64,000 nucleotides of DNA, from the NCBI RefSeq assembly GCF_030816715.1, contig NZ_JAUSYH010000001.1, forward strand, positions 6,014,001-6,078,000. The letters are read 5' to 3'. This stretch comes from Streptomyces achromogenes. Lineage in GTDB: Bacteria; Actinomycetota; Actinomycetes; Streptomycetales; Streptomycetaceae. Below are positions 56,101 to 60,057 of this stretch, piece after piece (position 1 is the stretch's first letter; each line of letters starts with the position of its first letter). The translations under genes and the position numbers were made by a program. The notes under the pieces were generated by a model, which searched no databases, was not told the origin of the DNA, and saw only the letters and a list, made by a program, of their open reading frames with translations.

Positions 56101-56290
56101 CGGACCGCTCGACGAGTACCGGCTGCGCCGCGCGCTCGCGACGGGCCGATATCCGGTGCCGCACGACGGGCCGGCCGAGCCCGCGTTCGCGGGCGGCGGC
56201 GCGGGGGTGTACACCAGTGGGGTGACCGCCGTCCTGGGGAGCGGAAGTGCCCTACGCTCACATAATGAGACTCCCGTCCCACCCACTTGA
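53153..56290 (+). CDS. Membrane PAS-GGDEF protein with degenerate EAL domain
   Basis: A protein of about 1045 aa. After a low-complexity N-terminus come several membrane helices (residues about 75-420 in two blocks), a PAS domain ([21 protein letters not shown]), an intact GGDEF domain, and an EAL-like domain. GGDEF lies at 647-651, with inhibitory-site RKGD at 638-641, so it should make c-di-GMP with feedback. The EAL region has lost most catalytic residues: AAQ (780-782) replaces EAL, DG (901-902) replaces DD, and RVG replaces the Asn-bearing NVS; only the Lys and Gln remain. It is probably a non-catalytic binding domain. The protein may correspond to Streptomyces CdgC by position next to ilvB. 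The start is uncertain; GTG at 53270 has a GGGAGGG site and GTG at 53123 is also in frame. Confidence 0.88.
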
Positions 56291-56323
56291 CAGTCGGTGC
56301 GCGCCAGGGGGAGGGTCAATGCC

Positions 56324-56365
56324 ATGCGCACCCGAATTCTCGTACTTGGCAAGCGCGTCGGCTGA
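56324..56365 (+). CDS. ilv leader peptide [13 protein letters not shown]
   Basis: A 13-codon frame beginning ATGCGCACC with GAGGG eight bases upstream encodes [13 protein letters not shown]. Four consecutive codons specify Ile, Leu, Val and Leu, the end products of the operon, and a further Val follows. It lies 56 bases before an intrinsic terminator hairpin and 175 bases before ilvB. This is the classic arrangement for ribosome-mediated attenuation: ribosome stalling at low branched-chain aminoacyl-tRNA would prevent the terminator. Such control of ilvB has been described or predicted in actinobacteria including Corynebacterium. An overlapping ATG at 56319 is in frame with ilvB but has worse spacing. 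Confidence 0.82.
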
Positions 56366-56420
56366 AGCTGGTGGCGTCCGGACGAACCCGGAAATCACAG
56401 CGACCCACACCCGGCGCGCT

Positions 56421-56454
56421 CCCCTCGCTTGCCTTATGGCACGAGGGGTTTTTT
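56421..56454 (+). terminator. ilvB attenuator terminator
   Basis: CCCCTCG (56421-56427) pairs with CGAGGGG (56442-56448), an inner TGCC/GGCA stem extends it across a TTAT loop, and six T follow at 56449-56454. It is one of the few hairpins here with a U-tract, and it lies between the leader peptide and ilvB. The alternative antiterminator fold needs a structure prediction to place. Confidence 0.88.
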
Positions 56455-56540
56455 GTTGCACAAAACCCGGGGCGACGCCCCCGCACCACCCCGGCAACAC
56501 CCGCAGAACCTTCAGTAAAACCCTCAGCATCGAGAAGAGA

Positions 56541-58394
56541 ATGCCGATGACCGAGCAGGCCACCGGGGCCCATCCGCAGCCGCGGCCCCGATCCGGAGGA
56601 CAGCACTCCGCGTCCGTCGAGCACGTGACGGGTGCGCAGTCCCTCATCCGCTCTCTCGAGGAGGTCGGCGCCGACACGGTATTCGGCATTCCCGGCGGTG
56701 CGATCCTTCCCGCCTACGACCCGCTGATGGACTCGACGAGGGTCCGTCACGTCCTGGTCCGTCACGAGCAGGGCGCGGGCCACGCCGCCACCGGCTACGC
56801 GCAGGCCACCGGCCGGGTCGGCGTCTGCATGGCGACCTCCGGCCCCGGCGCCACCAACCTGGTGACCCCGATCGCCGACGCGCACATGGACTCGGTGCCG
56901 CTCGTGGCGATCACCGGGCAGGTCGCGTCCAAGGCGATCGGCACGGACGCCTTCCAGGAGGCGGACATCGTCGGCATCACCATGCCGATCACCAAGCACA
57001 ACTTCCTGGTCACCAAGGCCGAGGACATCCCGCGGGTGATCGCGCAGGCCTTCCACATCGCCTCCACCGGCCGCCCCGGCCCGGTGCTGGTCGACATCGC
57101 CAAGGACGCCCTCCAGGCGAAGACCACGTTCTCCTGGCCGCCCGTCATGGACCTGCCCGGCTACCGGCCGGTGACCAAGCCGCACGCCAAGCAGATCCGT
57201 GAGGCCGCGAAGCTGATCACCGCCGCCAAGCGGCCGATCCTCTACGTCGGCGGCGGCGTCCTGAAGGCCGGCGCCACGGCCGAGCTGAAGGTCCTCGCCG
57301 AGCTGACCGGCGCACCCGTCACCACCACCCTCATGGCGCTGGGCGCGTTCCCCGACAGCCACCCGCAGCACCTCGGCATGCCGGGCATGCACGGCTCGGT
57401 GGCCGCCGTCACCGGCCTGCAGAAGGCCGACCTGATCATCGCCCTCGGCGCCCGCTTCGATGACCGAGTCACCGGCAAACTGGACAGCTTCGCGCCGTAC
57501 GCCAAGATCGTCCACGCGGACATCGACCCGGCGGAGATCGGCAAGAACCGCGCCGCCGACGTGCCGATCGTCGGCGACGCGCGCGAGGTCATCGCCGACC
57601 TGGTCCAGGCCGTCCAGAAGGAGCACAGCGAGGGCCAGCAGGGCGACTACAGCGCCTGGTGGACGGACCTGAACCGCTGGCGCGACACCTATCCGCTGGG
57701 CTACGACCAGCCCGCCGACGGCTCGCTCTCCCCGCAGCACGTCATCGAGCGCATCGGACAGCTCGCCCCCGAGGGCACGATCTTCGCGGCGGGCGTCGGC
57801 CAGCACCAGATGTGGTCCGCGCACTTCGTCCAGTTCGAGAAGCCCGCCACCTGGCTGAACTCGGGCGGCGCGGGCACGATGGGCTACGCGGTCCCGGCCG
57901 CGATGGGCGCCAAGGCCGGCGCCCCGGGCCAGACGGTCTGGGCGATCGACGGCGACGGCTGCTTCCAGATGACCAACCAGGAGCTCACCACCTGCGCCCT
58001 GAACAACATCCCGATCAAGGTCGCCATCATCAACAACGGCGCCCTCGGAATGGTCCGCCAGTGGCAGACCCTGTTCTACAACCAGCGCTACTCCAACACC
58101 GTGCTGCACTCCGGCCCGAACGACGTCAACCCGGACGCCCGGGGCACGCGCGTCCCGGACTTCGTGAAGCTGTCGGAGGCCATGGGCTGTTACGCGATCC
58201 GCTGCGAGTCCCCGGACGACCTCGACAAGGTCATCGAGGAGGCGAACTCGGTCAACGACCGCCCGGTCGTCGTCGACTTCATCGTCCACGAGGACGCGAT
58301 GGTGTGGCCGATGGTCGCCGCAGGCACCTCCAACGACGAGATCCTGGCCGCCCGGGACGTCCGCCCCGACTTCGGCGACAACGAAGACGACTGA
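56541..58394 (+). CDS. ilvB: Acetolactate synthase large subunit
   Basis: A 617-aa thiamin-diphosphate enzyme making acetolactate or acetohydroxybutyrate, the first common step to Val, Leu and Ile. The catalytic Glu lies in [18 protein letters not shown], the FAD region follows, and the TPP motif runs from [12 protein letters not shown] to IINN. ATG at 56541 or 56547 may start it; AGAAGAG precedes the first. An upstream open frame to 56247 exists, but it crosses the attenuator and is not the true start. ilvN follows 22 bases later. Confidence 0.96.
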
Positions 58395-58416: not shown

Positions 58417-58941
58417 ATGTCCAAGCACACGCTCTCCGTCCTGGTGGAGAACAAGCCGGGCATCCTGGCCCGGATCGCCGCGCTGTTCTCCCGCCGGGGC
58501 TTCAACATCGACTCGCTCGCCGTCGGCGTCACCGAGCACGCCGACATCTCCCGCATCACGATCGTGGTGAGCGTCGACGCCCTGCCGCTGGAGCAGGTCA
58601 CCAAGCAGCTCAACAAGCTCGTCGAGGTGCTGAAGATCGTCGAACTGGAGCCGGGACAGGCCGTTCACCGCGAACTCGTTCTGGTGAAGGTGCGCGCCGA
58701 CAACGAGACGCGCTCGCAGATCGTCGAGATCGTCCAGCTGTTCCGCGCCAAGACCGTCGACGTCTCCCCGGAGGCCGTGACCATCGAGGCCACCGGCAGC
58801 AACGACAAGCTCACCGCCATGCTCAAGATGCTGGAGCCGTACGGCATCAAGGAGCTGGTCCAGTCCGGCACGATCGCGATCGGCCGCGGCGCCCGTTCGA
58901 TCACGGACCGCTCGCTGCGCGCTCTCGACCGGTCGGCGTAA
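58417..58941 (+). CDS. ilvN: Acetolactate synthase small (regulatory) subunit
   Basis: A 174-aa subunit that activates IlvB and gives valine feedback inhibition. The N-terminal ACT domain reads LSVLVENKPGILARIAALFS, and the second regulatory domain has MLEPYGIKELVQSGTIAIGRG at the end. It is co-transcribed with ilvB. A perfect hairpin lies just after the stop, before ilvC. Confidence 0.97.
   Translation: MSKHTLSVLVENKPGILARIAALFSRRGFNIDSLAVGVTEHADISRITIVVSVDALPLEQVTKQLNKLVEVLKIVELEPGQAVHRELVLVKVRADNETRSQIVEIVQLFRAKTVDVSPEAVTIEATGSNDKLTAMLKMLEPYGIKELVQSGTIAIGRGARSITDRSLRALDRSA

Positions 58942-60057
<1,116 letters not shown>

Follow-up and report, generated by a model that had tools for sequence, protein, structure and literature searches.

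The leader of the ilvBNC operon in Streptomyces achromogenes raises the question of how a very short upstream open reading frame (uORF) and the terminator behind it might govern transcription into ilvB. We analysed the leader within a window of 64,000 nt, by which we mean the whole stretch of DNA under study, part of the single contig that makes up the 9.17-Mb genome. Reading of the sequence bore out the layout given by the original prediction: a 13-codon frame, a hairpin with six T and then ilvB, with consecutive Ile, Leu, Val and Leu codons ahead of the terminator (Table 1). Its reading of the locus as an ilvB attenuator is supported, and the mechanism was, as it stated, already predicted in the literature. 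As described in PMC1262725 (2005), ilvB leader peptides with terminators were predicted in Corynebacterium, Mycobacterium and Streptomyces, and the identical peptide appears as ilvL in PMC8079986.

Table 1. Elements of the ilvB leader, the genes that follow it, and two related leaders in the same genome. Positions are those of the window unless the contig is named.
Feature	Position	Strand	Basis
-35 box TTGACA of the leader promoter	56287..56292	+	class-wide TTGAC spacing, genus conservation, letters checked
Probable -10 box GAGGGT, spacer 18	56311..56316	+	spacing to -35 box and ATG, genus conservation, leaderless ilvL of S. lividans
ilvL uORF, 13 codons, ATG 56324 to TGA 56365, probably leaderless	56324..56365	+	ORF reading, genus conservation
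Control codons ATT CTC GTA CTT (Ile-Leu-Val-Leu)	56336..56347	+	letters checked, genus alignment
GTA, the codon fixed across the class	56342-56344	+	class comparison
P1 5' strand AGCGCGTCGG, uORF codons 10-13	56352..56361	+	folds, family-swap test, alignment
Variable hairpin P2, inside P1	56367..56401	+	window fold, genus alignment
P1 3' strand CCGGCGCGCT, abutting the terminator (0 nt between)	56411..56420	+	helix comparison, alignment
Intrinsic terminator hairpin	56421..56448	+	folds, covariation alignment
U-tract, six T	56449..56454	+	letters checked
ilvB, acetolactate synthase large subunit, ATG 56541 or 56547	56541..58394	+	NCBIfam NF005860, 1122.5 bits vs cut-off 881, protein read from 56547
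ilvN, acetolactate synthase small subunit	58417..58941	+	NCBIfam NF008864, 225.6 bits vs 119
ilvC, ketol-acid reductoisomerase	59059..60057	+	NCBIfam NF004017, 566 bits vs 336
cimA leader (L228/L183), outside the window	contig 6086212-6086346; R2 match 6086277-6086346		uORF VLSFATIIGSRRAGPQ, P1, terminator; citramalate synthase by NCBIfam
leuS leader (L230)	contig 3076285-3076372	-	uORF MRAVRLLLSEPR, same helix-terminator layout, weak score E 0.149

The terminator hairpin folds at -18.8 kcal/mol. It is absent from the output of a simple terminator scan of the window, all five hits of which lie on the other strand; that scan admits loops of 3-8, and the 7-pair stem of the ilvB leader closes a bulged inner stem. 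Searches with Rfam 15 at the gathering score returned no match in the leader or in 20 related loci, and thus neither a T-box nor any other known riboswitch aptamer in that set. At E up to 5 the leader gave four matches, all far under gathering, the best being Atu_C8 (21.7 bits vs. 50). Elsewhere in the window, a tandem glycine riboswitch (RF00504, 11480-11701, minus strand) has two matches above the gathering score. A long ORF upstream of the leader, GGDEF/EAL-like as named by eye, overlaps the leader promoter with its last codons (56247-56290); its TGA stop falls within TTGACA, in columns that are strongly conserved in the genus.

Within the genus, the 361-base leader region was matched in 245 of 246 genomes. 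The peptide MRTRILVLG(K/Q/T)RVG is found in all 90 loci examined, 30 of them from the search and 60 chosen among the better-matching listed places with the weakest matches left out, and its codons are nearly invariant: codons 2-4, 6-8 and 11-13 are identical in 90/90, and ATT is kept in 87. The original prediction hinged on the small frame and its Ile, Leu and Val codons being conserved across Streptomyces, and the alignment found them so. The stretch between the uORF stop and the 3' strand of P1 varies in both sequence and length among these loci, which argues that the fixed parts of the leader are under constraint.

Beyond the genus, all 118 class genomes have some IlvB match, and 89 of 90 class IlvB loci carry a uORF and a terminator; the exception, L154, has no uORF by the selection rule. 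That rule demanded at least two adjacent Ile, Leu or Val codons, so uORF presence at this level is not independent of codon content, and misses may be under-counted because the 90 loci (30 by search, 60 chosen) leave out the 21 lowest-scoring full-length and seven partial or weak matches. Typically the uORF with its branched-chain codons comes first, followed by a strand that includes CGCG, the complement of that strand and lastly the terminator, for instance CCCCTCG..CGAGGGG and TTTTTT behind it. Distances are as regular as order. In 80 of 89 loci an in-frame GTA, for which we took the last one in the 75 nt preceding the stop, sits 9-11 nt ahead of P1 (the shuffle rate is 3.8% per locus); the end of P1 is 0-2 nt from the terminator in 84 of the 89, and the outer P1 helix has at least five pairs in 84. 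The link enclosed by P1 is much shorter in most other families than the P2 region of the window. In genomes of one family (f19) the uORF comes to its stop ahead of the CGCG strand; the strand is nonetheless present with unchanged spacing, and is therefore kept as RNA. We had also considered the uORF tail (R-A/V) as a protein-level signal, and rejected it: the same CGCG bases follow the stop in uORFs that end early, in f19, in others and in other classes.

Promoter geometry suggests where the transcript begins. Of 89 class loci, 80 have TTGAC at 35-75 nt upstream of GTA, where shuffles lead one to expect 2.3. Its distance to a downstream ATG or GTG is 34-38 nt in all 79 loci that allowed measurement, a spread made narrower by our choosing as start codon whichever ATG or GTG came nearest to 37 nt. 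In the window, the TTGACA at 56287 is 37 nt before the ATG. From this spacing we infer a transcription start at or beside the start codon, so that the ilvL uORF is probably leaderless and its RNA probably has no Shine-Dalgarno sequence. The geometry agrees with the S. lividans ilvL transcript, reported as leaderless from RNA-seq in PMC8079986, and makes a start downstream of 56365 unlikely. The “good ribosome site” of the original prediction looks different in this light: the purine run AGGGGGAGGG (56306-56315) shares bases with what is probably the -10 region of a promoter that would start transcription at the ATG. A first fold begun at 56291 gave a long outer pairing that we set aside, since that fold took in bases that probably precede the transcript.

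We then turn to which helices evolution has preserved. In a family-swap coevolution test on all 89 class loci (32 families), P1 strands pair better with the partner from their own family than with one swapped in from another in 31 families, with a mean of -4.5 (s.e. 0.46) kcal/mol, and the terminator arms do so in 23 and pair worse in five. An alignment of 53 of the 89 loci (A1) has double changes in seven of eight P1 pairs and six of eight terminator pairs, 13 of 16 together, with 78 double-change cells vs. 26.6 in shuffles; these counts lean toward P1, because membership in A1 required a P1 distance of 9-11, a helix of at least five pairs, at most three loci per family and a length limit. 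Ninety percent of A1 cells pair, a figure that drops to 36-63% in slid versions.

The original prediction expected the antiterminator to form by alternative pairing, and here the comparison gave a different answer: no conserved pairing overlaps the terminator, and cross-family coevolution backs only P1 and the terminator itself. Neither the control codons, nor the uORF tail, nor the whole upstream region has a family-specific fit to either terminator arm in the 32 families; the upstream region fits the 3' arm better in 10 of them and worse in 15. The control codons can pair with the 3' arm at about -8 kcal/mol, no better than across families, and this candidate was dropped. Their fit to the uORF tail falls below chance in 26 of the 32 families, and their fit to the P1 3' strand (-0.44, s.e. 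0.32 kcal/mol) has no clear difference from zero. A by-eye pairing of the uORF with a terminator arm, GGCAAGCG:CGCTTGCC, was also rejected; 86 of the 90 genus loci read GGA and three GGC, and of the 25 that have CAG for AAG, 24 keep the arm CGCTTGCC and one was unreadable by the pattern.

With a ribosome assumed to cover -15 to +12 relative to the A site, the average fraction of P1 pairs that it hides rises from 4% with the ribosome on the codon before GUA to 25% at GUA, 51% at the next codon and 95% at the stop. At least 70% of the pairs are hidden at the stop in 85 of 89 loci, even though the stop ranges from GUA+9 to GUA+45. Half of P1 is hidden one codon past GUA, so stalling on CTT, which is the final control codon, would also disrupt P1, and this counts against the switch proposed below. 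Masked folds of 80 loci gave a similar picture: when the ribosome sits at GUA, half or more of P1 is kept in 75, the terminator in 77 and both in 74, and at the stop P1 is kept to that extent in one and the terminator in 79. In the window leader, P1 is formed when the A site holds Ile or Leu-6; GUA in that site shortens it, and CTT or the stop abolishes it. In these computed folds P1 thus appears to be the element that the ribosome switches, and the terminator does not appear to be displaced by pairing. As the terminator is kept at GUA and at the stop alike, P1 as the on-state would have to act by nearness.

We propose that the attenuator of ilvBNC reads the charging of branched-chain tRNAs, and we infer that the uORF is translated in the cell. 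Transcription would probably begin at the ATG of the leaderless 13-codon uORF. When branched-chain tRNA is uncharged, above all that for GUA, the ribosome would wait at ATT, CTC or GTA with its leading edge near the foot of P1, and P1 could form. When the tRNA is charged, the ribosome would reach the stop codon and cover the 5' strand of P1, which could then not form; the terminator would fold and transcription would end. A formed P1, 0-3 nt from the terminator and sharing no pairs with it, may hinder closure of the terminator base in the RNA polymerase exit channel, and this would give read-through under starvation. We regard this whole, from leaderless uORF through tRNA sensing to a P1 that blocks the terminator for ilvBNC, as the best explanation and a reasonably probable one; for the particular step in which P1 acts as an abutting antiterminator, our confidence is only a little better than even. 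The modelled folds speak partly against it, as the minimum-energy structure that retains the terminator in nearly every locus with the ribosome at GUA reveals no thermodynamic switch.

That observation could also mean that energy folding missed a true overlapping antiterminator, in which case the leader would be a classical attenuator and P1 only a pause or anti-antiterminator hairpin. Published models have this form: for Corynebacterium ulcerans, the 3' arm of the terminator is drawn paired with the P1 loop (the ilvB-II motif; PMC10272879), and for M. tuberculosis a mutually exclusive antiterminator and terminator are proposed (PMC13236596). In our own folds, two further G-C pairs carry P1 into the terminator arm in the truncated window RNA when no ribosome is present. 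Once a ribosome is placed at GUA, however, the 5' arm is engaged upstream in just 13 of 80 truncated RNAs, and the tested upstream partners of both arms lack coevolution across the 32 sampled families, so that we consider an overlapping antiterminator unlikely. What the leader does have is a control-codon uORF, an intrinsic terminator before a structural gene and, by computation, a helix that depends on ribosome position; an antiterminator sharing bases with the terminator was not found. Because P1 abuts the terminator without overlap and no tested partner coevolves, we class the locus as attenuator-like with a variant antiterminator rather than as a four-strand attenuator of the trp type.

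Geometry at the junction of the two hairpins allows the opposite sign of control. In A1, the base before the C run of the terminator and the first base after its stem form AU in 25 loci, GU in 13, GC in nine and other combinations in six (n = 53), and pairing of these flanking bases brings P1 and the terminator near end to end. With few or no bases between them, P1 could stack end-to-end on the terminator and promote termination, which a ribosome at the stop would relieve; an extra pair (A1 columns 100-137) that varies on both sides speaks for this reading. Abundant amino acids would then turn the operon on, opposite to what is reported for the Corynebacterium (PMC10272879) and M. tuberculosis (PMC13236596) leaders, and we think a termination-promoting P1 very improbable.

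We next consider related leaders found with two covariance models. The first, R1 (E up to 0.01, with stricter filters), matched 40 of 149 phylum genomes. The 30 loci covered outside the class comprise 21 before IlvB, four before LeuA (L198, L209, L211, L226), one before LeuS (L224), one before isocitrate lyase and three with no recognised gene (L202, L222, L225). Leaders of leuA (those four, L247 and L332) and leuS (L224, L230 and L357) have three or four Leu codons adjoining P1, and one in-class locus, L215, precedes CimA and has Ile codons. The second model, R2, omits the codon region; it was built from A2, that is, 55 of 56 listed sequences with L213 left out, and it partly rests on R1's matches because the other-class members of A2 came from R1.

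At E up to 0.05, R2 has a match in 131 of 148 class genomes, and in many of these it has two or three; eight of the 17 genomes without a match belong to family f25 and four to f36. Forty further class matches, chosen from the matches listed, comprise 37 before CimA and one each before LeuA, IlvB and a threonine ammonia-lyase-like gene. Of the 37 cimA leaders, 35 were analysable: adjacent Ile codons occur within an open frame in 29, and a single Ile codon lies near P1 in six. In these leaders P1 often ends 3 nt from the terminator, not 0. The Ile share at control positions is 0.49 for cimA (30 loci) vs. 0.13 for ilvB (80 loci), and the Leu share is 0.88 for leuA (two loci) and 0.75 for leuS (one locus), with the codon windows differing slightly (GTA-6 to +3 for ilvB, P1-18 to -7 for the others) and with seven cimA, leuA and leuS loci omitted that lacked exactly one open frame. 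Codons that follow the regulated gene in this way are good comparative evidence for tRNA sensing. A single locus, L262, has the module before the threonine ammonia-lyase-like (ilvA-like) gene, with the uORF VPLFLMVIT; the gene is cut by the fetched end and falls below the curated cut-off.

Two further classes had a match in 17 of 24 and 19 of 27 genomes. The 49 loci drawn from them are distributed over IlvB (30), isocitrate lyase (three), LeuA (one) and LeuS-like genes (three), and 12 are without a hit; additional other-class loci add two LeuA and three IlvB. Two of the LeuS-like matches, L360 and L361, are weak and look like T-box leaders by their motif. Isocitrate lyase genes of another class (L219/L351, L344, L350) have the same kind of module, with uORFs that end in Phe-Val with GTA, e.g., MPPVSEHAFSFVGSH as read by eye. 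The module at L323, also in another class, has no IlvB hit nearby; by eye, it is followed by a small ORF and then a prephenate dehydratase-like gene, and its uORF ends in RVLLIT.

Relatives also occur in the S. achromogenes genome itself. R2 found the ilvB leader at E 2.2e-9, a cimA leader at E 1.8e-4 and, weakly, a leuS leader (Table 1), and these three are the only ones recognised among its 16 matches at E up to 10; nine others (L229, L231-L238) gave no hit to five reference proteins, and the remaining four were left out. Three R1 matches in this genome (L182, L184, L185) were not recognised as such leaders. The leuS uORF MRAVRLLLSEPR corresponds to leuL2 of PMC8079986. The cimA leader was matched in 120 of 121 genus genomes, IIGSRRAGPQ is present in 29 of the 30 best-matching genus cimA loci, and with its Ile codons this leader is a candidate isoleucine attenuator. 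In the literature covered, which includes parts of PMC4833913 and PMC2965389 and few subscription journals, we found no cimA or isoleucine-codon attenuator in Actinobacteria.

Taken as comparative evidence, the conserved uORF, its codons and spacing, P1, the terminator and the exchange of codons with the gene indicate that the ilvB leader is very probably a ribosome-mediated branched-chain attenuator. The core of the original prediction stands in that form; its ribosome site is probably part of the promoter instead, and no conserved antiterminator overlapping the terminator was found. Experiments in related species point in more than one direction. According to PMC1262725, a 1999 study in S. 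coelicolor replaced candidate control codons and left ilvB regulation unchanged, and the exact mode of ilvB leaders was called unclear in that 2005 paper. The regulator NdgR binds upstream of ilvB in S. coelicolor, as described from ChIP, and so some ilvB control lies elsewhere. Both reports would suit a leader in which uORF and hairpins form a conserved minor layer, with ilvB mainly under NdgR or growth state. Such a minor role is hard to square with silent-site conservation in the genus, codons that track the gene, fixed spacing, and a reporter of the M. tuberculosis ilvB1 leader in which changing LVVI to AAAA abolished induction (PMC13236596), and it seems to us quite unlikely.

An attenuator built on control codons and P1 has several partial counterparts. 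The ilvL of S. lividans TK24 shares the identical 13-residue peptide, the leaderless transcript, the terminator and the ilvB operon; PMC8079986 tabulates eight leaders, including leuS and leuA and not cimA, and in the parts of it covered here we did not find the P1 helix or the distance rule. Likewise, PMC1262725 has leader peptide and terminator in common with our loci, and its covered parts do not include the P1 helix, the distance rule or a cimA member. The ilvB-II motif of Corynebacterium, compared through its description in PMC10272879, has branched-chain codons, a P1 spanned by the uORF and then a terminator hairpin (P2 in that description) before ilvB, a layout that the Streptomyces leader also has; it is described in one genus, and its antiterminator, the right arm of the terminator with the P1 loop, shows no coevolution across our sampled families. 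The ilvB1 attenuator of M. tuberculosis resembles our leader in its branched-chain uORF, in GUA as the regulatory codon of a footprint model and in its terminator; its antiterminator is given as mutually exclusive with the terminator, and PMC13236596 calls the molecular details underexplored.

In the trp, ilv and leu attenuators of enterobacteria, ribosome stalling at control codons decides termination through an overlapping 2:3 antiterminator and a protecting 1:2 hairpin. Stalling at control codons would be common to both systems, whereas neither of those two helices was detected as conserved here. To the known attenuator our comparison adds the architecture, the distance rule, a class-wide start that is probably leaderless, and the family of codon-swapped relatives. 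We tentatively suggest, with confidence just short of even, that Actinomycetota share a swappable cassette made of control codons, 9-11 nt, and a ribosome-sensitive P1 that abuts the terminator and blocks it by position rather than by shared pairs. Codon changes would have fitted the cassette to valine and leucine (ilvB), to isoleucine (cimA, perhaps ilvA) and to leucine (leuA, leuS). The cassette would contain no protecting hairpin of the trp type, and loss of uORF translation should therefore turn the operon on, not off.

For a long time the Streptomyces ilvB leader has had the look of an attenuator with seemingly unimportant control codons, as recounted in PMC1262725. The comparison supplies a specific architecture for it, predicts outcomes that separate this architecture from the textbook attenuator design, and adds isoleucine candidates at cimA. 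If the proposal is true, an abutting helix would be a simple amino-acid sensor, assembled from a fixed pair of hairpins and a changeable run of codons.
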